A stretch of 58,237 bases of DNA from NCBI GenBank assembly GCA_026705445.1, contig JAPPAR010000041.1, positions 1-58,237 on the forward strand, read 5' to 3'. Under the pieces are notes generated by a model. The model was not told the DNA's origin and did not search any database. It worked only from the letters and a program-made list of their open reading frames with translations. The translations under genes and the position numbers were made by a program. The stretch is from Candidatus Dadabacteria bacterium. Its GTDB lineage: Bacteria; Desulfobacterota_D; UBA1144; Nemesobacterales; Nemesobacteraceae. Shown here one piece after another: positions 2,106-40,465 of the stretch. Within the stretch, counting starts at the first letter, position 1. Each line of letters begins with the position of its first letter.

Positions 2106-3161
2106 ATGGGAACCTCCGAAAACGTAAAAGCGGGGATAACCGGGGCGACGGGTTTTATCGGTGGCAAGCTTGCTGAAAAACTTGCAGACGAGGGTTTTTC
2201 GATAAAATGCCTGGTAAGAGAAACAAGCGATACCGAAAAGTTGCGTTCTCTGCGTGCGGAACTTATCCACGGGGACCTTTGCGACTCCAGTTCGCTTCAA
2301 GCTTTTCCGCAAGAGTGCGATTACGTTTTTCATCTTGCTTCCAAGGTTTCTGACTGGGGACCAAGGGATGATTTTTTCAGGCAGAACGTAGAGGCGACGA
2401 GAATCCTTCTTGACTCTTCACGCGAGGCGGGGGTTAAAAGGTTTGTTTATATGAGCTCCTCTACCGTAATCTGGAATGCCTCTTTTCTTGGGACTGTAGA
2501 CCTCAAGGATATAGATGAAACCTATCCCTACCCAAAAAGCCACCATAATTTCTATAATGAAACCAAGGCCTTATCCGAAAAACTTGTGAGAGAATATAAC
2601 GGACGGGGAGGCATGGAAACAGTTATATTAAGACCGTCAAACGTCTGGGGAGCCGGCGACACGGTCATACTTCCGAGAATAGCCGACGCCTGTCTCAAGG
2701 GGCTTCTGGTTAACATGGGTTTTAACAAAAAAATCGTCTCTCCATGCCATGTGCTTAATCTTGTTCACGCCGCGGTGCTCTCGGTCCTCTCTCCTGCCGG
2801 GGCGGGCAACATATACTTTGTAAACGACGGGGCGCGTATCGATAACCGCCGTTTTGTCTCCGATCAGCTCGCGTCAATAGGAATTGAGTGGAAGCCGGGG
2901 GTCACGGTACCGTACACTCTGGGGTATGCGGTTGCGTTCGTTCTTGAGAAAATCTTTGAACTCAGAAGATCGGAGACCCCGCCTGTCCTTACCCGCTTTG
3001 GCGTTTCCGCTCTATCGAAGAGCAGAACCTACAGCATAGAGAAGGCAAGAAGGGATCTGGGTTATGAGCCGGTGTGCGGTTACGAGACGGGAATGCAGGG
3101 GCTTGCGGAGTGGATTTCAGAGATCGGCGGTTATGAAAAAATCCTTGGAAAAGGAAAATGA
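2106..3161 (+). CDS. NAD-dependent epimerase/dehydratase (extended SDR)
   Basis: A 351 aa extended short-chain dehydrogenase/reductase. The Rossmann motif GATGFIG lies near residues 13-19. A Ser-rich MSSSTV catalytic strand follows around 118-123, and the YxxxK pair is in FYNETKALSEK. The C-terminal substrate region resembles the 3-beta-HSD/HpnA-like group more than UDP-sugar epimerases, but the substrate cannot be read from sequence. The stop lies one base before the ccmA start, so it is almost certainly cotranscribed with the haem-export genes. The neighbourhood could suggest a link to envelope or isoprenoid-type lipid metabolism; this is inference only. Confidence 0.85.
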   Translation: MGTSENVKAGITGATGFIGGKLAEKLADEGFSIKCLVRETSDTEKLRSLRAELIHGDLCDSSSLQAFPQECDYVFHLASKVSDWGPRDDFFRQNVEATRILLDSSREAGVKRFVYMSSSTVIWNASFLGTVDLKDIDETYPYPKSHHNFYNETKALSEKLVREYNGRGGMETVILRPSNVWGAGDTVILPRIADACLKGLLVNMGFNKKIVSPCHVLNLVHAAVLSVLSPAGAGNIYFVNDGARIDNRRFVSDQLASIGIEWKPGVTVPYTLGYAVAFVLEKIFELRRSETPPVLTRFGVSALSKSRTYSIEKARRDLGYEPVCGYETGMQGLAEWISEIGGYEKILGKGK

Positions 3162-3162
3162 T

Positions 3163-3885
3163 ATGCAACCCGCTGTATACGCGATAGAAACCAAGAGACT
3201 TGAAAAGCAGTTCGGGTTTTTCCCTGTGCTGATGGGAATTGATCTTACCGTTGAACAGGGCGGATTCCTCACCATTTTCGGTCCCAATGGCGCCGGTAAG
3301 TCCACCTTGCTTTCCATTCTTTCGACATTCATCAAACCCGGCGGGGGAGAGGCCTTTGTAGCCGGTTTTGACGTTTCCAAGGAAAAACAGCAGATAAGAA
3401 AACTTATAGGGTTCATCTCCCATAACACGATGCTTTATGAAAACCTTACCGCCTGGGAAAACCTCGAGTTTATAGGCGCGTTCTACGACGTGCCGGATCT
3501 TAAGAGCAGGTGCTCTGATATTCTCGAGAGGGTTGAGCTCTACGCTAAGAAAGACGCGCTCGTAAGCACCCTTTCTTTCGGAACGCGCCAGCGCCTCGCT
3601 ATCGCCAGAACGCTTCTTCACGACCCGCAGATACTTTTTCTGGATGAGCCGTACAGCGGCCTTGATTACGGCGGAGCTGCCATCCTTACCTCGATTCTAG
3701 GTTCAATGAAAGCGGATAAAACCGTAGTTATGACAACCCATAATGTCTACGAGGGGCTTTTGCTGTGCGACAAGGTGGCAATTCTCGATCAGGGAGAGGT
3801 GGTCTATGTATCCGCGCAGAAACCCGCTCGCGAGGAATTTCAGGATATCTACATGTCTTGCGTCAGAAGTGGTGACGGGCAATGA
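3163..3885 (+). CDS. ccmA: Cytochrome c maturation ABC ATPase CcmA
   Basis: CcmA is the cytoplasmic ATPase of the CcmABCD complex that releases holo-CcmE. From the chosen start the protein has 240 aa. Walker A GPNGAGKST is at 40-48, the signature LSFGTRQR at 137-144, and Walker B ILFLDEP with D-loop SGLD at about 157-168. The switch His is in VVMTTHN. The ATG at 3163 is preceded by AAGGAAA at good spacing and follows the epimerase stop by one base; upstream in-frame starts overlap that gene and lack a good SD. The signature glycine-rich segment is altered (SFG instead of SGG), as in other divergent CcmA proteins. It overlaps ccmB by 4 bases. Confidence 0.9.
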   Translation: MQPAVYAIETKRLEKQFGFFPVLMGIDLTVEQGGFLTIFGPNGAGKSTLLSILSTFIKPGGGEAFVAGFDVSKEKQQIRKLIGFISHNTMLYENLTAWENLEFIGAFYDVPDLKSRCSDILERVELYAKKDALVSTLSFGTRQRLAIARTLLHDPQILFLDEPYSGLDYGGAAILTSILGSMKADKTVVMTTHNVYEGLLLCDKVAILDQGEVVYVSAQKPAREEFQDIYMSCVRSGDGQ

Positions 3886-4580
3886 GAAATATATTGCTTA
3901 TATTCAGAAAGGATTTTCTGGTGGAGTGGCGTTCGAAGCAGATATTTCCGACGATGTTCGTATTTTCGCTTCTGCTTCTCCTGGTTTTTAACGTTGCTTT
4001 TGAATTCCGCTCGGATGTTGATTCCCGGGCAGTCTCGGCCGTTATATGGATAACTTTTATTTTTTCTGGACTCTTGGCCCTTGGAAGATCCTTTTCGCTT
4101 GAAAAGGAAAATAATGCCTTCGCGTTTCTTCTTCTGACTCCTGTAAGCAGAAGCTACATCTATCTCGGAAAACTGCTTTCAAACACGGTTATGGTTCTGC
4201 TCTCCGAGCTCTTCATACTTCCGCTTTTTCTTCTGTTTTTTCTTTTTGATGCAGGCGGGGTTTCGCTTTCATTTACAGACACCATACTCCCATTTCTCGG
4301 GGTTATGGTTCTTGGAACGATAGGGTTTGTGTCGCTTGGCACTTTTTTTTCTTCGATGGCCCTTAATACAAAGCTTCGCGACATGATGCTTCCCCTGCTG
4401 GTTTTTCCCCTCATCATACCTGTCGTGATAACCTCGGTCGGAATATGCTCTTCAATACTGGAGGGAAGGCCTCCGGATTACTACGCTTTTTCTTTGCAGG
4501 TACTGGTTTCCTTCGATATAATCTTCATCCTTTTATGCTCTATTCTGTTTGAGTATCTTATTGAGGATAGCGGGGACTGA
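3882..4580 (+). CDS. ccmB: Haem exporter permease subunit CcmB
   Basis: A 232 aa integral membrane protein with about six hydrophobic segments, consistent with CcmB, the permease partner of CcmA. The start overlaps the ccmA stop (ATGA), a translational-coupling arrangement. The early MRNILLIFRKDFLVEWRSK region and the PLLVFPLIIPVVI segment fit the family. Size is close to the usual 220 aa. In System I, CcmAB work with CcmC and CcmD to release haem-loaded CcmE; direct haem transport by CcmAB is not established. Confidence 0.9.
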   Translation: MRNILLIFRKDFLVEWRSKQIFPTMFVFSLLLLLVFNVAFEFRSDVDSRAVSAVIWITFIFSGLLALGRSFSLEKENNAFAFLLLTPVSRSYIYLGKLLSNTVMVLLSELFILPLFLLFFLFDAGGVSLSFTDTILPFLGVMVLGTIGFVSLGTFFSSMALNTKLRDMMLPLLVFPLIIPVVITSVGICSSILEGRPPDYYAFSLQVLVSFDIIFILLCSILFEYLIEDSGD

Positions 4581-4598
4581 CCCGCTTTCTTTTTAAAA

Positions 4599-5258
4599 AT
4601 GCGAAAAATACTGTTTTTCCTGACGTTTGCGCTGATGGCTCTCGCTACCTGGATGACGCTTTTTTACGCGCCTACGGAAGTGGTTATGGGCCATGTGCAG
4701 AGAATTTTCTATTTCCACATGGGGACGGTCTGGGCCGCCACGGTGGCTTTTACGGTGGTTTTCGTGGCGAGCATATATTATCTGGTAAAGGAGACAGCGA
4801 AATGGGATACGCTTGCCTACTGCTCGGCCGAGATAGGCATGCTGCTTCTTACTCTAACGATTATCACTGGGAGCATATGGGCAAAGCCGGTCTGGGGAAC
4901 CTGGTGGACATGGGACCCGCAGTTAACGACCACGTTTATTCTCTGGGTTCTTTACGCCGTTTATCTGGTTCTGCGCTCCGGTGCCGGAGGGCGCGGAAAA
5001 AAGGCTAGATACTCGGCCATATTCGCCATAATTGCCTACGTGGACCTTCCAGTGGTTTATGTCTCGGCCCGTATAAAAAGAGGCATATCGCCCGTGGTCT
5101 TCGGACCTGGGGGAGGTGGCATAGATCCCGCCATGATGCACACTCTTTTGGTCACCCTGTTGGGATTTACGCTTCTTTTCGTTTTACTCCTAGGTGAGAG
5201 AACGAGGATAATGAACATGGAAAATCAGCTTTACGCCCGGGGCGGGCGAGTGGGGTAG
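4599..5258 (+). CDS. ccmC: Haem-handling protein CcmC
   Basis: CcmC attaches haem to CcmE in the periplasm. This 219 aa protein has about six membrane segments. The tryptophan-rich WWD motif (GTWWTWDPQLT) is near residues 101-110. Two conserved His are present, His40 (YFHMGT) and His181 (AMMHTLL), matching the flanking haem ligands of the family. It begins 18 bases after ccmB with no clear SD (the upstream bases are TTTTTAAAA), so translation may rely on coupling. Length and motifs indicate an intact protein. Confidence 0.93.
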   Translation: MRKILFFLTFALMALATWMTLFYAPTEVVMGHVQRIFYFHMGTVWAATVAFTVVFVASIYYLVKETAKWDTLAYCSAEIGMLLLTLTIITGSIWAKPVWGTWWTWDPQLTTTFILWVLYAVYLVLRSGAGGRGKKARYSAIFAIIAYVDLPVVYVSARIKRGISPVVFGPGGGGIDPAMMHTLLVTLLGFTLLFVLLLGERTRIMNMENQLYARGGRVG

Positions 5259-5264
5259 TCTGCG

Positions 5265-5399
5265 ATGGAATATTTCCTCTGGTCAAGCGTAGTGGTCTGG
5301 GGCTCTCTTATCGCCTATGTGCTCTACCTGCGCGCAAAGTCGGCTTCGGTAAGGAAAAAGCTGCTCTCGGGCGGTGACGGCCCTGAAGGTGAAGGTTGA
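5265..5399 (+). CDS. ccmD: Small membrane protein CcmD
   Basis: A 44 aa peptide: one hydrophobic segment (residues 4-22, with TyrPhe and Trp near the start), then a basic stretch RAKSASVRKK and a short acidic tail. This is the layout of CcmD, which holds CcmE in the CcmABC complex. It sits between ccmC and ccmE, exactly where ccmD is expected, starting 6 bases after ccmC. Its stop overlaps the ccmE TTG start by 3 bases. Sequence conservation in CcmD is low, so the call rests on topology and position. Confidence 0.8.
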   Translation: MEYFLWSSVVVWGSLIAYVLYLRAKSASVRKKLLSGGDGPEGEG

Positions 5400-5806
5400 A
5401 GGGTAAACTCAAATTCATTTTGCCTCTTTTGGTGATAGTTTCCTTGATTTCCTGGCTTGTCTTCGCGGGAGTCAAGGATTCCATGGTCTACTACATAACG
5501 GTTGACGAACTGTTAGAGGACGTCCCGGACATCTACGGGCAGAAGGTAAGGGTTTCTGGAACCGTGGTTCACGGTTCAATAAAGAACGAGCTAGATGATT
5601 CGCTTCGGTTTACCATAGCGGACGGCAAGGGTGAAATCGACGTCGAGTACGACGGCATAATTCCCGATATATTCACAGACGGGGTTGAGGCGGTCGTTGA
5701 GGGTAAGTTCTCCGCCGATAACGTCTTTGAGGCGGACCTGTTGCTTGCAAAGTGCCCCACCAAGTATGAATCCGAAGAAGCCCCCTACCAGAGAAAAGAA
5801 GGTTAA
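5396..5806 (+). CDS. ccmE: Haem chaperone CcmE, CxxxY (System I*-like) variant
   Basis: CcmE carries haem covalently from CcmC to CcmF. The 136 aa protein has an N-terminal membrane anchor (about 6-25) and an OB-fold domain with GQKVRVSGTVV. The haem-binding motif, normally HxxxY, is here CPTKY: Cys120 and Tyr124, so the ligating His is replaced by Cys. CxxxY CcmE is known from archaea and Desulfovibrio-type bacteria (System I*). The start is TTG, overlapping the ccmD stop; it gives the right N-terminus MKGKLKFILP. The tail after the motif is short. See findings for the combination with CcmH and CcmG. Confidence 0.92.
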   Translation: MKGKLKFILPLLVIVSLISWLVFAGVKDSMVYYITVDELLEDVPDIYGQKVRVSGTVVHGSIKNELDDSLRFTIADGKGEIDVEYDGIIPDIFTDGVEAVVEGKFSADNVFEADLLLAKCPTKYESEEAPYQRKEG

Positions 5807-5808
5807 CA

Positions 5809-7767
5809 ATGTCTGATCTCGGAAGTATAGCCATACTTCTTTCCTTCTTTATCACTATCTACAGTCTTGCTGCCTGCGCTGTTGCCGCGAAAACGGGGAG
5901 CTGCGCATTCGCTCAAAGCGGCGGAAACGGTCTTGTCTCGGCAGCTTTTCTTCTTCTGGTAGCGGTGGGCTGTCTTGTTTATGAGCTTGTAACGCTTGAT
6001 TTTTCGCTCAGATACGTAGCGCTTAACACGAGCACCGACCTTCCGGTGATATACAGGGTGACGGCCCTTTGGGCCGGTCAGGCGGGATCCTTGCTTCTGT
6101 GGAGTTTTGTTCTTTCACTGTATGCGGCTTTCGTGGTTCTTAGAAGCAGAGAAAAGGGTGGCGACCCTTATGTAAACGTCGTTTTATGCGCCGTTTCTCT
6201 TTTCTTTCTTTTCCTCATAGCCTACGTGGAAGACCCATTTGAGAAACTGGGTGTGGCAGTTGGGGAAGGAAGGGGACTTAATCCGATTCTTCAGAACGGA
6301 TACATGGCCATCCACCCGGTCACTTTGTATGTGGGATACGTGGGTATTACGGTGCCTTTTGCCTTCGGCATAGCAGCCCTGCTCAGCGGTCGCCTAGGGG
6401 ATGAGTGGATAAGGAACTGTAGAAAATACGCCCTTTTCTCCTGGATGTTTCTCTCCGCGGGGCTCCTTCTCGGGGCCAGATGGGCGTATCTTGAACTCGG
6501 CTGGGGAGGATACTGGGCATGGGATCCGGTTGAGAACGCCGCATTTATGCCATGGCTGGCAGGGACCGCGTTTCTTCACTCCGTCATGATTCAGGAGAGG
6601 AAGGCGATGCTTAAGAAATGGAACATGGTTCTGCTTATAATCACCTTTTTTCTCTCCATATTCGGCACCTTCATAACCAGAAGCGGCATAGTGTCCTCGG
6701 TTCACTCCTTTGCCCGCTCGGACATAGGTCCGCTTTTTCTTGGCTTCATGGTTTTCATACTGCTTTTTTCCTTTGCTCTTCTCATCTACAGGTCAAAAGA
6801 ACTCAAAAGCGAGGAGAGGTTTGATTCCCCTCTTTCAAGGGAAAGCGCCTTTCTGTTTAACAATCTTCTTTTTCTGGCGGCGGCCTTCTCCGTTTTTCTG
6901 GGAACGATTTTCCCTGTACTCTCGGAGGCTTTCATTGGGAAGAAAATCCTTGTCGGCCCTCCTTACTTCAACGCCGTAGGGGTGCCTATCGGGCTTGTTC
7001 TTATCCTGCTGATGGGAATAGGTCCGCTTATATCCTGGAAAAAGGCTTCGACGGCAAACCTCAAGAGAAATTTCGTTTTCCCCGCGGTGGTTTTTCTGGT
7101 GGTTCTCCTGGCGCTTCTTGTCTTCGGTCTCAGGGAACCTGTGGCGCTTTTAAGTTTTGCACTCTGCGGGTTTGTTGCTGCGACGGTGTTTTTGGAATAT
7201 TTCAGGGGTATCAGGGTGCGAAGCGGCAGGGGGGAGAACCCGGTTTCGGCCTTTTTTAATCTCATCTCAAGGAACCGCAGACGCTACGGCGGATATATCG
7301 TTCATCTGGGAGTTGTACTGCTGGTAGCGGGAATCACGGCTTCTTCGCTTTTCGTTACTCAGAAGGAGGTTGTCTTGGAAAAGGGAGATTCCTTTTCCCT
7401 AGGAAGGTACGATCTGGTTTTCCATGGGGTGCGCTTTATTTCAAATGACGCCAAGGATGGATTTTCAGCGGAACTTTCAATCCGCAACAACGGTAAAAGC
7501 GTCGCGACCATGTATCCAGAAAAAAACATCTACAAGTACGAGGGAAACAGGGAGATAAATCAGGAAACCGAGGTCGCGCTTCGCTCCACTTTCAGAGACG
7601 ATCTTTATCTCATACTCTCAGAGGTCGATGGGAGCGGAAAGGCGAACATAAGGGCTTTGCTTAACCCGATGGTTAACTGGATATGGGCTGGAGGTTTTGT
7701 TATCGTCCTTGGAGCGATTGTCACCATGTGGCCTGAGAGGCAAAGAAAGAAGGAGTTCGGCGCGTGA
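5809..7767 (+). CDS. ccmF: Cytochrome c haem lyase subunit CcmF
   Basis: CcmF, with CcmH and CcmI, ligates haem to the CxxCH motif of apocytochromes. At 652 aa it matches E. coli CcmF (647 aa). The WWD motif GGYWAWDPVENAAFMPWL is near residues 233-250. Four His that match the conserved ligand positions are visible in MAIHPVT, AFLHSVM, SSVHSFA and YIVHLGV. Many transmembrane segments are present, plus a periplasmic C-terminal domain before the last helix. The ATG has AAGG seven bases upstream. It starts 2 bases after the ccmE stop and overlaps the next gene by 4 bases. Confidence 0.95.
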   Translation: MSDLGSIAILLSFFITIYSLAACAVAAKTGSCAFAQSGGNGLVSAAFLLLVAVGCLVYELVTLDFSLRYVALNTSTDLPVIYRVTALWAGQAGSLLLWSFVLSLYAAFVVLRSREKGGDPYVNVVLCAVSLFFLFLIAYVEDPFEKLGVAVGEGRGLNPILQNGYMAIHPVTLYVGYVGITVPFAFGIAALLSGRLGDEWIRNCRKYALFSWMFLSAGLLLGARWAYLELGWGGYWAWDPVENAAFMPWLAGTAFLHSVMIQERKAMLKKWNMVLLIITFFLSIFGTFITRSGIVSSVHSFARSDIGPLFLGFMVFILLFSFALLIYRSKELKSEERFDSPLSRESAFLFNNLLFLAAAFSVFLGTIFPVLSEAFIGKKILVGPPYFNAVGVPIGLVLILLMGIGPLISWKKASTANLKRNFVFPAVVFLVVLLALLVFGLREPVALLSFALCGFVAATVFLEYFRGIRVRSGRGENPVSAFFNLISRNRRRYGGYIVHLGVVLLVAGITASSLFVTQKEVVLEKGDSFSLGRYDLVFHGVRFISNDAKDGFSAELSIRNNGKSVATMYPEKNIYKYEGNREINQETEVALRSTFRDDLYLILSEVDGSGKANIRALLNPMVNWIWAGGFVIVLGAIVTMWPERQRKKEFGA

Positions 7768-28483: not shown

Positions 28484-28882
28484 CTATTTCTTCTCCTCAA
28501 CCCTGTATGCGCGAATGGTTCTCAGGATTATTGCCGCGCCGATAAGTACGGAAAGTACGGGCAGGAGCCATAATATGACGCTGAATCCTCTGGGCGGGGG
28601 GGACGCGAGGATGGTTTCTCCGTAGCTTGAGACGAAGTAGTCTATTATCTCTTCCTTTGAGTGGCCTTCAAGCAGCTTTGTTTTTATGACGGCCCTCATG
28701 TCTCTGGCAAGCTGTGCGTTTGATTCCGCAACGCTCTGTCCCTCGCATACTGGGCACATGAGTTCTCCCGATATTTCCGCTATTTGGTCTTCAAGCGTGT
28801 CCGCATCCGCCTGGAAGGCGATAAGAAGGGCCAGGAACAAAAAAAGCCCCGCGCTCAGGATCTTGCGAAAAAAACTGTTCAC
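28484..28882 (-). CDS. ccmH: Cytochrome c maturation thiol protein CcmH
   Basis: CcmH keeps apocytochrome Cys residues reduced for haem ligation with CcmF. The 132 aa protein has a signal peptide or anchor (about 5-24), the LMCPVCEGQS motif with Cys43 and Cys46, and the family segment MRAVIKTKLLEGHSKEEIIDYFVSSYGE. A C-terminal membrane helix follows (about 103-122). It is full length for a CcmH without a fused CcmI domain. It overlaps ccmG by 4 bases and is about 20 kb from the main ccm operon. Confidence 0.93.
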   Translation of the reverse strand: MNSFFRKILSAGLFLFLALLIAFQADADTLEDQIAEISGELMCPVCEGQSVAESNAQLARDMRAVIKTKLLEGHSKEEIIDYFVSSYGETILASPPPRGFSVILWLLPVLSVLIGAAIILRTIRAYRVEEKK

Positions 28883-29442
28883 GGTTTTTCACTCCCCCGG
28901 CTCTGCCCGTTGTAAATAGTCGCGTTCTCCATATAGCTCATGATCATCTTTTCAGTAAGCGGTCCTCTGTGCTTGCCGGTTATGATTCCCTCGGGGCTTA
29001 CGAAGAAAGTCTCCGGGACCCCTCCCACTCCGTAATCCAGGTGTACCCTGTTTTCCGGGTCATAAACGTTGACGAAGCTTCCCCCGAACGATTTTACGTA
29101 TTCCTCGGCGCTTTTCCTGTCGTCCATTACGTTTATTCCTATGAACTCAACCTGATTGCCCGAGAGAGACATGTAAGCCCTCTCAAGTGCGGGAGCCTCC
29201 TCTCTGCATGGATGACACCAGGACGCCCAGAAATTAACAAGCAGGGTCTTTCCCCGGAAATCAGAGAGTCTTACCTTCTCGCCGCTAAACGATTTCAGCG
29301 CGAACTCGGGCGCGGGTCTTCCCACAAGCTGTGAGGGCGTTTCAATACCTCCCTTCCCCGAAAGCCCGCTCCAAAGGGTGTACGCAAGCAGGGCTATAAT
29401 AAGGACGGTAAGAATCTTCGGTACCGCATTTGATATTTTCAT
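28879..29442 (-). CDS. ccmG: Thiol-disulfide oxidoreductase CcmG/DsbE (thioredoxin fold)
   Basis: CcmG is a membrane-anchored periplasmic thioredoxin that reduces CcmH or apocytochrome. The 187 aa protein has an N-terminal helix (about 8-25) and a thioredoxin fold with FWASWCHPCREEAPAL: active-site Cys76 and Cys79 separated by His-Pro. The cis-Pro region GVGGVPETFFVSPEG is also typical. It is translationally coupled to ccmH. Its electrons would come from a DsbD/CcdA protein; a ccdA gene lies at 36815-37570. Confidence 0.93.
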   Translation of the reverse strand: MKISNAVPKILTVLIIALLAYTLWSGLSGKGGIETPSQLVGRPAPEFALKSFSGEKVRLSDFRGKTLLVNFWASWCHPCREEAPALERAYMSLSGNQVEFIGINVMDDRKSAEEYVKSFGGSFVNVYDPENRVHLDYGVGGVPETFFVSPEGIITGKHRGPLTEKMIMSYMENATIYNGQSRGSEKP

Positions 29443-33505: not shown

Positions 33506-34795
33506 CTAGAGCAGATCTTTTATCTTCTCTTCCAGAGACTTCTTGTAAGCATCAAGATCGATCTGGATTCTGGAAACGCCGGTTTCCATCGCGGCCTGCG
33601 CGACCGCGGCTGACTCCCATACCAAAACCCTGGGATCAAATGGCTTCGGGACTATGTAGTCCGGACCGAACTCAAATTTCTGGTCTCCGTAGGCCCTGGC
33701 TACTTTATCCGGTACGGGTTCTTTTGCGAGTGCCGCGAGAGAATATGCTGCTGCAACCTTCATTTCGTCGTTTATTTTTGTTGCTCTTACGTCAAGCGCT
33801 CCTCTGAAAATAAAAGGAAATCCCAAAACATTATTCACCTGGTTTGCAAAGTCGGAACGTCCGGTGGCCGTTATTACGTCGCTTCTGGCTTCCTTCGCTT
33901 CTACGGGGAGTATCTCGGGATCGGGATTAGCCATGGCGAATATTATAGGATTTTTCGCCATGTTCTTGACGTCTTGCTGATTTATGGCTCCGCCATTTGA
34001 AAGTCCGACAAACACATCGGCCCCGACCAGCGCGTCCCCTATGGTCCTTTTGTCCGTATCGACAAGAAATCTTTCTTTCTGGGGATTAAGCCCAGCGTTT
34101 CTTCCCTCGTAAATTACGCCCCTGCTGTCGCACATTATTATGTTTTCCCTTTTTGCTCCGAGGGCTATGAAGAACTCTGCGCATGCGATTGCGGACGCTC
34201 CGGCGCCGTTAAAGGCCATTTTGAGCTCGCTCATCTTTTTCCCGGTAATCTCACAGGCGTTAAGAAGTCCAGCACCCGATATTATAGCGGTTCCGTGCTG
34301 ATCGTCGTGAAAGACGGGTATGTCCATCTCTTCTTTCAGCTTATCTTCTATGTAGAAGCATTCGGGGGCTTTTATATCCTCAAGGTTAATACCGCCGAAA
34401 GTGGGCTCAAGGTATTTTACGGTCTTTATGAATTCGTCGGGGTCATCGGTATCTATTTCAATGTCGTAGGCATCAACATCCGCGAACTTCTTGAAAAGCA
34501 CCCCTTTTCCTTCCATTACGGGTTTTCCCGCCAGGGCGCCCAGGTTTCCGAGTCCCAGTATCGCAGTGCCGTTTGAAGCTACCGCGACCAGATTTCCCCT
34601 GTTGGTGTATTCATAAGAGAGATCTTTGTCCTTGTCTATTTCCCTGCAGGGTTCGGCGACTCCTGGAGAGTACGCGAGGGAAAGCTCCCATGCCGTGTCA
34701 CAGGGCTTTGTTGGTACGACTTCAAGTTTTCCTTTTCTGCCGCTTCTATGATATTCAAGAGCGGCTTCCTTCATATTCTTATCGCCTTCGCACAT
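33506..34795 (-). CDS. NAD(P)-dependent malic enzyme
   Basis: A 429 aa short-form malic enzyme without the C-terminal phosphotransacetylase domain of MaeB. It decarboxylates malate to pyruvate. Visible are [14 protein letters not shown], the [18 protein letters not shown] box, [11 protein letters not shown] and the second nucleotide-site [15 protein letters not shown]. The cofactor preference is not certain. The ATG at 34795 has GGAGG 12 bases upstream; a downstream ATG at 34774 (MKEAALEYH) is equally possible. Confidence 0.92.
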
Positions 34796-35143: not shown

Positions 35144-35383
35144 ACATAAACTTATATGACAATTTTATTTTTGAAAAATTTTTCTGAAGTTTCTGCATAC
35201 AGTTTTTTCTGTTATCAGCTTGCAATCGCTCACAGTTTTCTACAAGCAGCTTTTCCAGCAAAGTTCACAAAAATTTTTTTACTTGCCAACGCTGTAATAG
35301 GGCATATTTTAATAGCGGGAACTCCGCGTCCCTCATGCCGTTTCCGCTGAGTGCGCATCTGCGTAATTTTATATGGATCTGCC

Positions 35384-36214
35384 ATGTCAGACATAAATGA
35401 AGTTGGAACAACCGCATTTGCCGTAGCCTGCTACAGGGAAATGGAACAAAACCGTGAACACCGCGTGTTCAACGACCCGTACGCCCACTGGTTTGTCACG
35501 GACGAGATAAGAGAGAAGGTTGACAGGGTAACGAAGATTCTTCCGGAATCGGTTGAAATTCTCCGTTACCGCTTCTGCATACTGGATGAGATCACGAGAC
35601 GGGAGATTCAAGCCGGCATGAAACAGATTGTCATACTCGGCTGCGGGTTTGACATGCGCTCCCTGGTCTTTGAGACCGAGGGAGTGCGTTTCTGCGATGT
35701 TGACCAGCCGTCCCTTCTGGAATTCAAGCGCAAGGTGCTTGAAAGCCGCGGCGTTAAGCCATGCGCAAGCATACCATGCAACTATCTTGAAGCTGACCTG
35801 CCGGAAGAACTCATCAAGGCGGGCTTTGACATCAACTCCCCGATATTTTTTCTCTGGGAAGGAAACAGCATGTATCTTCCCCTTGAACTGATCCACAGTT
35901 TCTTTGACAGCCTGTGCGCCAGAATTCCTTCGTTCAAAATCGCTTTTGACTACTATCCGTTGAGTGTCATTAACAGGACCCACGAAAACCCTGATGTTGT
36001 CAGGGCGACTGACATGTTCCAGAAAACTTTCAACGTGACCTGGGTGACCGGGTTTGATGACCTAAGCGTCTTTGAAAAGCGCCACGGCATGAAGGTAGAG
36101 GAGTCAACGGAACTGCTTGAGGTCGGGAAACAGGTCGCTCCGGAAGCCGTAGATTCGGTCGCCCCCCTTGTCGGCGCGTACAGCTACGGAATCCTGAGCT
36201 ACGGAGGCGCGTAA
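35384..36214 (+). CDS. SAM-dependent methyltransferase (leucine carboxyl methyltransferase / COG3315 family)
   Basis: A 276 aa class I methyltransferase of the LCM/PPM1 family (PF04072). The SAM motif is IVILGCGFDMRSL (about 82-94), with the family's FCDVDQPSLLEFKR acidic turn and FLWEGNSMYLP further on. The N-terminal TTAFAVACYREMEQ segment is typical. Relatives methylate polyketides or unknown O-acceptors. The ATG at 35384 is followed by the conserved start; an in-frame start at 35351 is less likely. It is a stand-alone gene among small accessory genes. Confidence 0.88.
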   Translation: MSDINEVGTTAFAVACYREMEQNREHRVFNDPYAHWFVTDEIREKVDRVTKILPESVEILRYRFCILDEITRREIQAGMKQIVILGCGFDMRSLVFETEGVRFCDVDQPSLLEFKRKVLESRGVKPCASIPCNYLEADLPEELIKAGFDINSPIFFLWEGNSMYLPLELIHSFFDSLCARIPSFKIAFDYYPLSVINRTHENPDVVRATDMFQKTFNVTWVTGFDDLSVFEKRHGMKVEESTELLEVGKQVAPEAVDSVAPLVGAYSYGILSYGGA

Positions 36215-36434: not shown

Positions 36435-36704
36435 ATGATGACAGAATCTTCCATAGCGAAAAAGGGACAGACGACTTTGCCGAAACCTGTTCGTGAATTT
36501 CTTGGTCTGCGGGCCGGAGACAAGATCCGTTATTTCATTGCTGACGGTGGAGTGCGTATTATGCCCGTGCGGAGCGTTAAACGACTGTGCGGAGCACTGC
36601 AATACGATGGTCCTGCGGTTACCCTTGAGGAGATGGAGCAGGCTATCGCGGATGGAGCGTGTGAGGGAAATGGCGCGGATGCTCCTGGAATCGCTCACGA
36701 CTGA
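36435..36704 (+). CDS. AbrB/SpoVT-type antitoxin-like DNA-binding protein, apparently orphan
   Basis: An 89 aa protein with a swapped-hairpin AbrB domain at about 5-48: KKGQTTLPKPVREFLGLRAGDKIRYF. This is typical of type II antitoxins of the VapB/MazE sort. A GGGAGG lies 4 bases before the first ATG and 7 before the second (36438), so the latter may be the true start. No VapC- or MazF-like toxin follows; the next 110 bases contain no gene. It may be a remnant of a lost toxin-antitoxin pair or a solo regulator. Confidence 0.82.
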   Translation: MMTESSIAKKGQTTLPKPVREFLGLRAGDKIRYFIADGGVRIMPVRSVKRLCGALQYDGPAVTLEEMEQAIADGACEGNGADAPGIAHD

Positions 36705-36814: not shown

Positions 36815-37570
36815 CTAAAACCTTTTCCAGAAATCTATCCCCACCGCGTCAAGTATTTTCTGACCATAGATATTTAAGTAGTGAATCTCGTTTGAAAACA
36901 TCATTATTCCTATGATTACAAGTCCCGAGCCTATTGCGTACTTATAATACGGGTAATACCTTCTGACGCCGCTAAAAGATATCATGGCGCTGTTAAACGC
37001 AAGACCGACCAGCATGAACGGTATGCCGATCCCGAGTGAATAAACCGCGAGCAGCCCAACCGCGTTTAGCGTTCCTTCCACTGTGCTTGCGTAGAGGAGT
37101 ATGGATCCGAGAATAGGTCCTACGCAAGGCGTCCAGCCAAAACCGAACGCCAAACCGAGAATATAAGTTCCGAGAAGATTTCCCCTTTCCCGCGGAAGGG
37201 AGATTTTATGTTCTCTCTCAAGAAATGGGACCTTTACGATCTCCATTACGAATATTCCGAAAAGGATTATGAATATTCCGGCTATTCTGAGCAAAAAAGT
37301 CTTGTTGCCGGAGATCATCCCCCCAAGCTGGGAAGAGAATGCGCCCAGGGAGATAAAGACAGTTGAGAATCCCAGGATGAAGACAAGACTTGGTACGATC
37401 ACCCTTGAGAATTTGGGCAGGTTTCGAGTGTCTGAGAGATCTTCGTATGAAAGATGCGTTACTACCGATAGGTAACCCGGCATAAGCGGAAGAATGCAAG
37501 GAGAAAGAAACGCGATCACCCCGGCGAAAAAAGAAGCAACTATTCCCACATCCAGAATTTCGGGATTCAT
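36815..37570 (-). CDS. ccdA: Cytochrome c biogenesis thiol transporter CcdA
   Basis: CcdA moves electrons from cytoplasmic thioredoxin across the membrane to periplasmic thioredoxins such as CcmG. The 251 aa protein has about six to seven membrane segments and the two conserved Cys: Cys25 in FLSPCILPLMPGY and a second one in GWTPCVGPILGS (around 145). It overlaps the glycosyltransferase gene by 4 bases and is the last gene of the arsenosugar-type operon. It probably serves CcmG/CcmH, though its linkage with ArsS suggests other clients too. Confidence 0.92.
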   Translation of the reverse strand: MNPEILDVGIVASFFAGVIAFLSPCILPLMPGYLSVVTHLSYEDLSDTRNLPKFSRVIVPSLVFILGFSTVFISLGAFSSQLGGMISGNKTFLLRIAGIFIILFGIFVMEIVKVPFLEREHKISLPRERGNLLGTYILGLAFGFGWTPCVGPILGSILLYASTVEGTLNAVGLLAVYSLGIGIPFMLVGLAFNSAMISFSGVRRYYPYYKYAIGSGLVIIGIMMFSNEIHYLNIYGQKILDAVGIDFWKRF

Positions 37571-38280
37571 ACCGGTTTTCTCTCCTCGTTTTTCTCAGTA
37601 CGGTTTTTTTGGCCTTTCAAAAGAATTTGCTCCAGTCTGCGCGCGAGTTTCATATCCCTTGTCATTATATCCTTTATGCTTATATCTTTTTCCTCGTCAA
37701 TATCCGAAAGTTCTCTCATGACGGCGTGGCGCAGACCGCTTCCCCTAATCCGTCTTTCGGTCTCCTTAAATACGCGGGAAGTGCTCCATTGGATATCCTG
37801 AAAAACCGCGTCCGTTTTCCTGCATAGCCCGAGGAGATAGTATCCCCCGTCGGTTGCCGGACCCAGGACCGCCTCAAATTTCTCTCCCGAAAGCAACGAG
37901 AACGCTCTTTGCAGGTCTTCTTCGGTCATCATCACGCAGTCTGTGCCTATGATGACGACATTTCTGAATCCCAGTGAAAAACATTTTTCAAACGCACGGG
38001 ACATTCTCTGTCCGAGAGAACCTGTCCCCTGCGCGAAAAAAAAACCTTCTTTGTCTCCCAGCCACTCAAAAACCTCTTTTTTTCTTTCTCTTGGAGTATA
38101 GAAGAAGAAAGCCGTCCAGTTCTTTGAACCCGAGAAGGAGTCGGCGACGAAACTTGCCGTTTCACGATAGAGTTCCATGGCCCTCTGCTTCCCTATGTCT
38201 TTTCCCAGGCGCGTCTTTACTTTTTCTGTTTCCGGATACTTAAGAAAAACGATCAGGGCGTTATCGTTTTTTTGCGACAT
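37567..38280 (-). CDS. TIGR04282-type glycosyltransferase, arsenosugar-associated (DUF2064)
   Basis: A 237 aa protein of the group annotated as TIGR04282, probably a GT-A glycosyltransferase linked to arsenosugar biosynthesis. Visible features are ALIVFLKYPETEKVKTRLGKDIG at the start, VVIIGTDCVMMTEEDL (about 111-126) and VLGPATDGGYYLLGL. The ATG at 38280 gives the family start; a longer reading overlaps arsS out of frame and was rejected. It is 17 bases downstream of arsS and overlaps ccdA. Confidence 0.88.
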   Translation of the reverse strand: MSQKNDNALIVFLKYPETEKVKTRLGKDIGKQRAMELYRETASFVADSFSGSKNWTAFFFYTPRERKKEVFEWLGDKEGFFFAQGTGSLGQRMSRAFEKCFSLGFRNVVIIGTDCVMMTEEDLQRAFSLLSGEKFEAVLGPATDGGYYLLGLCRKTDAVFQDIQWSTSRVFKETERRIRGSGLRHAVMRELSDIDEEKDISIKDIMTRDMKLARRLEQILLKGQKNRTEKNEERKPV

Positions 38281-38297
38281 TCCGCAAAGCCTCGGAA

Positions 38298-39299
38298 TCA
38301 GGATGCCGTCTGGCCGCCGCAGCTGCTTCCGGCCCCCGCGGTGCATCCGAAACAGTGAACGCCGAACCTTATCTTTCTGTTGATCACCTGGCGAAGGTCG
38401 AAGTTGAATATGGTCAGCTCCCCGTTCCCGTTTCGGCACTGCATCTCAAGCATCTGGTTAAAGTCGCAGTCGTAGATTTTTCCGTCGTGGCTTACGCTGA
38501 TCAGGTTCCGGCACATTATGCCGTTTACGGTTTCGGGATTGAAAGCGTTTACAAGCTTTTCGATGTATTCCTCGTAGGCGTTCTGTTTTCTCAGTTCCTT
38601 CTCAAACCTGTTAATCGGCATATTGGTCAGTGTGTATAGGTTATCGAACCGTATCCCGTAGTTCTTTTTGAGTTTTGCCTTAAAGTCTGCTTCAAGGCTC
38701 ACCTGGTCCGGGGGAAGAAAAGTCCCGACGGGGTTATATACCAGATTAAGTTTCAGTTCTCCGCCCCCGTAGCCTTCGCTGTTAAGCATTCTTAGGGATT
38801 CTATGCTTTTTTCAAAAACCCCTTTCCCCCTCTGCTTGTCCGTGAAGTAGCTGCTGTAATATGGAAGCGAGGATATCACTTCAACGCGGTTTTCGGCGAA
38901 AAACCTTGGTATGTACGTTTTTTCCTCTCCCGTCCGGGGGTTCCCGTCGAGAGTAACCGTCAGGTTGTGTCTTACCATTACGTGTTTGCCAAGACTTCCG
39001 GCCTCCCTTACGAAGTAGTCAAAATGGGAGTTTAACTCTGGAGCTCCTCCAGTCAGGTCAAGGTTTTTGATGCAGTCGTTTTCACTAAGTATTTCAAGAC
39101 ATCTTTCTACGCCCTCAATGCTCATCTGCTCACTTCTCCAGGGCGAGGCATCCACGTGACAGTGAGTGCAGGCCTGGTTGCAAAGTTTTGTTATGTTCAC
39201 CTGCAGGGTTTCAACCGTAATAGGGTTGATATCGAGACCTTGGTCGATCAGTTTGCGGGAAAAATTATGATTCTCTGTCTTCGTTTTTTCTTGGATCAT
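38298..39299 (-). CDS. arsS: Arsenosugar biosynthesis radical SAM protein ArsS
   Basis: A 333 aa radical SAM enzyme. In known systems ArsS joins a 5'-deoxyadenosyl group to dimethylarsenite made by ArsM. The 4Fe-4S motif is CNQACTHC (Cys40, Cys44, Cys47) and TGGAPELN follows. The C-terminus has the family's CFGCTAGAGSSCGG box. Many homologues carry selenocysteine in this box; here the codons are TGT and TGC, so it is a Cys form. No arsM gene is in the window. It sits between the AhpD-like gene (63-base gap) and the glycosyltransferase. Confidence 0.9.
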   Translation of the reverse strand: MIQEKTKTENHNFSRKLIDQGLDINPITVETLQVNITKLCNQACTHCHVDASPWRSEQMSIEGVERCLEILSENDCIKNLDLTGGAPELNSHFDYFVREAGSLGKHVMVRHNLTVTLDGNPRTGEEKTYIPRFFAENRVEVISSLPYYSSYFTDKQRGKGVFEKSIESLRMLNSEGYGGGELKLNLVYNPVGTFLPPDQVSLEADFKAKLKKNYGIRFDNLYTLTNMPINRFEKELRKQNAYEEYIEKLVNAFNPETVNGIMCRNLISVSHDGKIYDCDFNQMLEMQCRNGNGELTIFNFDLRQVINRKIRFGVHCFGCTAGAGSSCGGQTAS

Positions 39300-39362
39300 G
39301 ACGTATCCTTCGAGAGCTTCCGTTAACTTGTTCCGTGGCAGGTTTTCTTCCTGTTTTTGTTT

Positions 39363-39698
39363 CTAGAGGGCACGGTTTTTTTTCAGCGTGTTATGCATCT
39401 GGATTGCATGGATGAGCTTTATGCCCGCCGACATTGATGCGGCGACATGTACGGCTTCAGTCATCTGCTCCGGGTCCGCTCCAGTCTCAAGGCACTGCGT
39501 AGTGTATGCGTCTATGCAGTAGGGACATTTTTCGGTATGAGCCACGGCCAGGGCTATGAGCGCTTTTTCCCTTTTCGTAAGTGCCCCTTCCTCGGCGGTT
39601 GCGGAGTTGTAGTACTCGAAAAACTTGTCCATGAGGTCTTCACTGAACTCTCCGATCTCGGGAAATCTCTTGAGATCCTCGGGGTTGTAGTAATCCAT
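39363..39698 (-). CDS. Arsenosugar-associated AhpD-like protein
   Basis: A 111 aa carboxymuconolactone decarboxylase/AhpD-like protein that resembles the peroxidase-like family regularly found next to arsS. The active-site pair is EKCPYCIDAY (Cys58, Cys61) and the following His-containing helix AVHVAASMSAGIKLIHA is typical. GGGAG lies upstream of the ATG. It is the first gene of the four-gene minus-strand cluster. Its enzymatic role in arsenosugar synthesis is not known; thiol peroxidase or disulfide chemistry is likely. Confidence 0.88.
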   Translation of the reverse strand: MDYYNPEDLKRFPEIGEFSEDLMDKFFEYYNSATAEEGALTKREKALIALAVAHTEKCPYCIDAYTTQCLETGADPEQMTEAVHVAASMSAGIKLIHAIQMHNTLKKNRAL

Positions 39699-39793
39699 TT
39701 TTCTTTTTCTCCCGTCTGTGTGTTATTCGCAGACTCTTTGTATAGGCTTCTCCCGGCAGTAAAATACCATATCTCACAAATCGGGGAAACGGA

Positions 39794-40465
39794 ATGATAA
39801 AGGCGGTCATATTCGATTTTGACGGCGTGATAGTCGACAGCGAGCCTCTGCACCTCAGAGCTTTTCAGAGAATTGTAGAAACTCTGGGACTAAAGCTCTC
39901 GCCCACCGACTATTACTTACGGTACCTTGCCTGCGACGACAAGAGCTTTTTCAAGAGGTTCCTTGAGGATAACGGACAACAGTACACGGAACGGGAGATT
40001 GCACGGCTTGTCAAAGAAAAAGGCATCTGTTTTGAAGAAATGATAGGGGAGGACATAAGAATTTTTCCGGGGATCGTTGAGTTTCTTGAGACCATTCGGG
40101 GCAGATTTCATGTGGCGATAGGTTCCGGCGCGTTAACCGGAGAGATTAACCTCATACTGAGGCACAAAGGGCTTTCCGAGTTCTTCGGCTTTGTAATAGG
40201 GGCTGATGATACGGAAAACCCGAAACCATCCCCCGAGGTCTACCTTAAATGCCTTGAGAGGTTCAGAAGAGATTACGACGGCACCATAACGGCCGCCCAG
40301 TGTGTTGTGTTTGAAGATTCCCCCCACGGTGTTTTGGCGGCCAAAAGGGCAGGGATGAGATGCGTCGGTATTTCTAACTCGTGTTCCGGTGACGAGCTTG
40401 GGCTTGCCGACCGGGTTACGGAAAGCTTTTCCGAGATCATTGACGATTTCCCCGAGATGTTCTAA
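39794..40465 (+). CDS. HAD-superfamily phosphatase (phosphoglycolate phosphatase/PGM-beta-like)
   Basis: A 223 aa HAD hydrolase: motif I FDFDGVIVDSEP (about 7-18), motif II AIGSGA, motif III-IV NPKPSPEVYL and FEDSPHGVLAAK. It resembles phosphoglycolate phosphatase and beta-phosphoglucomutase. The substrate cannot be assigned. GGGGAAACGG lies before the ATG. It is transcribed divergently from the arsenosugar-type cluster. It is a paralogue of the HAD gene at 32748-33413, sharing the IKAVIFD-DGVI-DSEP start. Confidence 0.85.
   Translation: MIKAVIFDFDGVIVDSEPLHLRAFQRIVETLGLKLSPTDYYLRYLACDDKSFFKRFLEDNGQQYTEREIARLVKEKGICFEEMIGEDIRIFPGIVEFLETIRGRFHVAIGSGALTGEINLILRHKGLSEFFGFVIGADDTENPKPSPEVYLKCLERFRRDYDGTITAAQCVVFEDSPHGVLAAKRAGMRCVGISNSCSGDELGLADRVTESFSEIIDDFPEMF

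Follow-up and report, generated by a model that had tools for sequence, protein, structure and literature searches.

Loss of ArsM from a Dadabacteria arsenosugar-type gene cluster that ends in CcdA

Known arsenosugar loci combine ArsM and ArsS with an AhpD-like protein (TIGR04169) and a glycosyltransferase (GT; TIGR04282), and the substrate of ArsS is DMA(III). In the 58,237-nucleotide stretch of Dadabacteria DNA analysed here (the window), which belongs to a genome of 1.78 Mb that is 97.6% complete, ArsS, the AhpD-like protein and the GT are likewise encoded in one operon-like run, but ArsM is missing from both the locus and the genome, and the run ends in CcdA. The locus raises two questions: where the substrate of ArsS comes from, and whether CcdA takes part in the arsenic route. 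Judged by titles and the starts of abstracts, the open-licence literature yielded no publication that deals with ArsS of Dadabacteria or links ArsS with CcdA.

Gene order at the arsenosugar locus

The cluster and its flanks comprise the following features.

33506-34795, (-): malic enzyme, downstream flank of CcdA (profile matches; adjoins CcdA in ArsS-less genomes too)
35351-36214, (+): TIGR00027 (leucine-carboxyl-type) methyltransferase, convergent with ccdA (115 bits, cut-off 94)
36815-37570, (-): CcdA, membrane thiol-disulfide electron carrier (Pfam DsbD_TM, PF02683, 55 bits, cut-off 27)
37567-38280, (-): GT, DUF2064 (TIGR04282, 185 bits, cut-off 134)
38298-39299, (-): ArsS radical SAM enzyme, Radical_SAM plus DUF3641 (TIGR04167, 409 bits, cut-off 300)
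39363-39698, (-): AhpD-like protein, peroxidase family of arsenosugar loci (TIGR04169, 161 bits, cut-off 120; PF02627)
39699-39793: gap of 95 bases between AhpD and HAD, the site of ArsM in relatives
39794-40465, (+): HAD hydrolase, upstream flank, divergent from AhpD (same flank in the G014, f4, f5 and f7 loci)

A sequence-only reading of this DNA had proposed the order AhpD-like, ArsS, TIGR04282 GT, CcdA with a 4-base overlap at the last junction, and this order holds, the three TIGR families scoring above their curated cut-offs and DsbD_TM above that of Pfam. The AhpD-like and arsS genes are 63 bases apart, and the GT and CcdA genes share the bases ATGA. The open reading frame list starts the GT at 38439, within arsS; translation more likely begins at an ATG at 38280, 17 bases beyond the stop codon of arsS. 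The AhpD-like protein contains a CPYC motif, and the closest named ArsS is that of Candidatus Dadabacteria APA_bin_8 (91% identity). Every ArsS-bearing genome of the window's genus (12 of 12) has the AhpD–ArsS–GT–CcdA arrangement, which is therefore not a product of chance. Between ccdA and the TIGR00027 methyltransferase gene lies an AbrB/PrlF-like antitoxin gene (window 36435-36704).

Absence of ArsM from the genome and the genus

ArsM, noted as missing by the sequence-only reading, is not detected in the rest of the genome either, nor in any of the 12 ArsS-bearing genomes of the genus. Over the whole window genome, the best match to the curated arsenite-methyltransferase model scored 60 bits, short of the cut-off of 263, and a broad 14-row ArsM profile, covering the long and the short forms, returned nothing at E 1e-15. 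The same profile scored no more than 62 bits in any of the genus's 13 genomes, compared with 383–498 bits for ArsM in the intact or near-intact clusters of relatives. The gap between HAD and AhpD measures about 95 bases in the window's genus versus 1045–1792 bases in ArsM-carrying loci, and tblastn with three ArsM queries found no ArsM remnant in it. That the AhpD-like gene might itself be the remnant of an ArsM–AhpD fusion was rejected, since relatives encode the two proteins separately and the search for an ArsM remnant came up empty.

ArsS exceeded its cut-off in 32 of 57 genomes of the phylum, most of the compared genomes being fragmented assemblies. Of these 32, 15 have ArsM inside the cluster (a count that includes G031, where it is on a second contig ending in AhpD, and G032, where it is cut) and two have it elsewhere in the genome (G006 and G008); one locus (G041, 82% complete) sits at a contig end in a genome with no strong ArsM match, and 14 genomes lack ArsM altogether. 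These 14 comprise the 12 members of the window's genus with ArsS and the two genomes of family f5; in the 13th genome of the genus (G023), neither ArsS nor CcdA was detected. In G006 (L144) and G008 (L145), AhpD and ArsS form isolated pairs with ArsM elsewhere in the genome, and G008 carries GT–TlpA–CcdA–malic enzyme on a contig separate from its AhpD–ArsS pair.

Ancestral cluster and independent losses

The sister genus in the same family (G014) carries HAD followed by ArsM–AhpD–ArsS–GT–TlpA–CcdA–malic enzyme–HAD–AKR, with the flanks of the window, and G010 (family f4) and family f7 have HAD, ArsM–AhpD–ArsS–GT–TlpA–CcdA and malic enzyme, mostly followed by HAD and AKR. This full cluster agrees with the window in order, strand and flanks but includes ArsM and a ResA/TlpA-like thioredoxin, both of which the window lacks. 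Where the stretch from GT to CcdA is covered in G014, G010 and f7 (12 loci), TlpA always lies within it; none of the 14 ArsM-less loci has it there. ArsM and TlpA are thus both missing from the window's genus (12/12 ArsS-bearing genomes) and from another small-genome family, f5 (2/2).

A tree of six locus proteins from 30 genomes (1739 columns, quick method) branches in the order f7, f5, G010, then G014 with the window's genus, the key branches having SH-aLRT values of 99–100; it represents the genes of one locus rather than a full species tree, agrees with the family labels, and has G010, G014 and G011 among the rows marked as long-branched or of unusual composition. The ArsM-bearing G010 and G014 fall between the ArsM-less f5 and the window's genus, a nesting that argues for independence: on this tree, ArsM was lost independently in the two lineages. 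The locus is a variant of the known arsenosugar cluster, in which the loss of ArsM is real, derived and repeated.

In G005, G038 and G039, the order is HAD–TlpA–CcdA–malic enzyme with no arsenic genes between, which is the empty form of the arsenosugar site. A joint loss of ArsM and TlpA as working partners was considered and is not supported, TlpA adjoining CcdA without neighbouring arsenic genes in these three genomes and in G013 and G002; it is also missing beside CcdA in four of the six ArsS-less f8 loci examined. The loss of TlpA thus follows genome reduction instead.

The cluster region is split by insertions in two genomes of the genus, between HAD and AhpD in G021 (L138:4025-5248) and between ArsS and GT in G022 (L139:5276-6505; 1.3 kb); both encode TnpB-like proteins.

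A different arrangement occurs in family f2, where five genomes (L167:5534-8062 in G007; L163, L164, L165 and L166) encode a protein of about 840 aa in which a radical SAM/SPASM half is fused with a complete ArsM half. The fusion occupies the place of ArsM–AhpD–ArsS in relatives, with a TIGR04282 GT after it in four of the five loci and TlpA and CcdA downstream on the same contig in three. Its SAM half is closest to mycofactocin and NirJ-type maturases, not to ArsS, and the fusion possibly represents another organoarsenical route. A PiT-like phosphate transporter gene, assigned by eye, lies between GT and TlpA in the f2 arsenic cluster (L167:8738-9871 and L165:6457-7596).

Selection on the retained genes

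Median dN/dS in the window's genus is 0.046 for AhpD, 0.084 for ArsS, 0.22 for the GT, 0.08 for CcdA and 0.03 for malic enzyme. In two ArsM-bearing genera ArsS has values of 0.10 and 0.04 and the GT values of 0.20 and 0.15, from few usable pairs with high dS, and the comparison gives no clear sign of relaxed selection on ArsS or the GT after the loss of ArsM. Eight cysteines are present in all 111 aligned ArsS sequences, namely the CxxxCxxC motif at residues 40/44/47 and C263, C278, C316, C319 and C327. Departures among the 14 ArsM-less sequences are limited to two of 85 near-invariant columns, with one sequence at each; near-invariant here means at least 95% conserved in 97 reference rows, some of them from foreign genomes that may also be without ArsM. 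Since purifying selection and essentially all of the near-invariant residues have been kept, loss of ArsS function or new chemistry in the genus is unlikely, and a different product, which the sequence-only reading had offered as an alternative, becomes less likely given the intact ArsS residues.

A passage in PMC12159101 cites Cheng et al. 2021 (Angew Chem) for arsenic adenosylation by ArsS in arsenosugar biosynthesis. The window ArsS resembles that characterised enzyme in matching the NCBIfam ArsS equivalog and in conserving the radical SAM and C-terminal cysteines, and differs in belonging to a genome without ArsM as substrate supplier.

ArsS loci in other phyla

We also compared 79 foreign ArsS loci (L009–L087), which are best matches rather than a random sample and have flanks of varying length, some cut by contig ends. 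A CcdA profile built from Dadabacteria and a motif scan of the flanks, the latter tuned to CcdA and liable to miss DsbD-type proteins, found CcdA at none of them. Whole genomes were checked for 48, covering 49 of the 79 loci: 15 of their 61 PF02683 matches could by coordinates fall in the flanks, and none of these translates to CcdA there. ArsM scored above 200 bits (own profile) in 18 of the 79 loci; over the 48 whole genomes, whose completeness is not given, a wider profile (A1) at 1e-30 found it in 33 and not in 15. NF008823 at 1e-30 found ArsM in 31 of the 48, missing some long ArsM proteins that adjoin ArsS. With 15 of 48 foreign ArsS genomes in the same position, ArsS without detected ArsM is not unique to the window's genus, and ArsS may have another substrate or another route of supply, and such routes may be common.

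CcdA and cytochrome c maturation

CcdA is the only PF02683 match in the window genome, and its sequence contains SPCILPL and TPCVGP, the two proline-flanked cysteines that mark the DsbD_TM family. The window also holds a cytochrome c gene and two groups of cytochrome c maturation (Ccm) genes.

3064-7767, (+): System I genes for a CcmA-like ABC ATPase, CcmB, CcmC, CcmE and CcmF (NCBIfam and Pfam matches)
28484-29442, (-): CcmG-like protein (DsbE/ResA family; TIGR00385, 101 bits, below the cut-off of 123), then CcmH (PF03918, 114 bits)

CcmA and CcmG score under their NCBIfam cut-offs, and the Pfam models CcmB, CcmE, CcmF_C and CcmH are above theirs. Of the 57 genomes of the phylum, 56 encode cytochrome c assembly proteins. 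According to a passage in PMC8782879, CcmG of Ccm bacteria is supplied by DsbD, whose family includes the CcdA-like proteins. The window resembles that System I arrangement in that its sole DsbD_TM protein is CcdA and genes for CcmA-like, B, C, E, F, G and H proteins lie in the same 58 kb, and differs from it in that ccdA ends an arsenic operon, apart from the ccm genes. The CcmG-like protein is the likely recipient of electrons from CcdA.

CcdA is more widespread than ArsS, occurring in 53 of the 57 genomes of the phylum versus 32 for ArsS, and 21 genomes have CcdA without ArsS. In all six ArsS-less f8 loci CcdA adjoins malic enzyme, with a thioredoxin-like gene beyond, and a CcmH-like gene, recognised by eye, comes next in the two loci that were read completely. 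Where ArsS is present, CcdA is inside the cluster in 26 of the 32 genomes; four of the other loci lie at a contig end, and two genomes have CcdA elsewhere. Of the 12 loci of the genus, 11 keep the 4-base overlap between GT and CcdA, as does one f5 locus; in f7 an overlap of the same size joins TlpA to CcdA, a difference to be expected if TlpA was excised. The GT/CcdA overlap suggests co-expression and room for a second role of CcdA.

The link between ccdA and ArsS that the sequence-only reading had pointed out is therefore real within the phylum, and the survey of ArsS loci that it proposed showed that ccdA is not confined to the window genome. The electron or thiol coupling to ArsS that it drew from this link is not supported: CcdA is the sole DsbD_TM protein of a cell with a Ccm set, it adjoins malic enzyme where ArsS is absent, and it was found at none of the 79 foreign ArsS loci. 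Two outcomes had been named as telling against that proposal, a ccdA neighbour restricted to this genome or arsM adjacent in close relatives with ccdA elsewhere; in relatives both genes lie inside the cluster, and neither outcome was found as worded. ArsM and CcdA stood together in the ancestral cluster and ArsM was lost later, a combination absent from the options considered there. CcdA is most likely an ordinary housekeeping neighbour.

Discussion

The reading we favour, with a probability of about 0.6, is that a retained ArsS module receives its methylated arsenic from an extracellular source, in a shortened operon whose CcdA is a housekeeping protein. The ancestor would have had ArsM–AhpD–ArsS–GT–TlpA–CcdA, the arsenic genes lying beside, and probably inserted next to, an older TlpA–CcdA–malic enzyme block; the window's genus would then have lost ArsM and TlpA and kept AhpD, ArsS and the GT functional. 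The reaction of ArsS is most likely still the transfer of the 5'-deoxyadenosyl group of SAM to dimethylarsenite, with the GT presumably acting in a later glycosylation step. Given an unchanged ArsS and no ArsM, the most economical explanation is an influx of methylated arsenic into the cell; the dimethylated arsenic, not made by an ArsM of the cell's own, most likely comes from neighbouring organisms. CcdA most likely carries electrons from cytoplasmic thioredoxin to CcmG for cytochrome c maturation, and would be on the shared transcript owing to the position of the operon.

We consider two other accounts of the substrate unlikely, and about equally so. Another cellular methyltransferase, such as the TIGR00027-family enzyme beyond ccdA, might have replaced ArsM and now supply dimethylarsenite: its gene, 0.6 kb away from ccdA, evolves under purifying selection (dN/dS 0.13) and occurs in 11 of the 13 genomes of the genus, an ArsM-losing lineage, and in none of the other 44 of the phylum. 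The gene is, however, on the strand opposite to the arsenic cluster, and it is not present wherever ArsS occurs without ArsM, being absent from G016, an ArsS-bearing member of the same genus, and from both f5 genomes (G011 and G012); the other weak ArsM-profile matches, read in frame, include none with the invariant cysteine motifs of ArsM (by eye, the L001 match excluded). Alternatively, ArsS might use a different arsenical (arsenite or monomethylarsenite) or yield a different product, making ArsM unnecessary, with which the retention of ArsS after both losses of ArsM and the 15 foreign genomes of ungiven completeness that likewise lack a detectable ArsM agree; against it, the departures at two of the 85 near-invariant columns involve one sequence each, with no shift common to both lineages, and the GT and AhpD have been kept.

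A functional role of CcdA in the arsenosugar route, as a source of electrons or reduced thiols, fits its shared strand, the overlap in 11 of 12 genus loci and one f5 locus, and its place in most clusters of the phylum, but we regard it as improbable: the 21 genomes with CcdA and no ArsS keep the malic enzyme neighbour in those examined, the protein is the only CcdA of a Ccm-bearing cell and is missing from ArsS loci of other phyla, and the overlapping junction is the TlpA/CcdA junction of relatives. Less probable still is decay of the genes that remain, or their co-option for a non-arsenic use, after ArsM was lost. The route does lack its first gene, and gene loss is under way in small-genome lineages, yet dN/dS for AhpD, ArsS and the GT is not clearly above that in ArsM-bearing genera, and the genes persist in 12/12 ArsS-bearing genomes of the genus, one of which carries the 1.3-kb insertion between arsS and GT.

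On the favoured reading of outside supply, we tentatively suggest, at somewhat less than even odds, that two Dadabacteria lineages independently became arsenic finishers, so that the making of arsenosugars is split between species and relies on dimethylarsenite from a neighbour or host; an association of the window's genus with sponges is a guess. The locus also carries a warning for annotation, in that a conserved neighbour joined by a translational overlap, as CcdA is, can be a housekeeping gene. Two lineages that maintain ArsS without ArsM offer a clean natural test of the ArsS substrate. If arsenic methylation and adenosylation are divided between organisms, natural arsenosugars would partly be a community product, and a search for arsM and arsS within one genome would miss producers.
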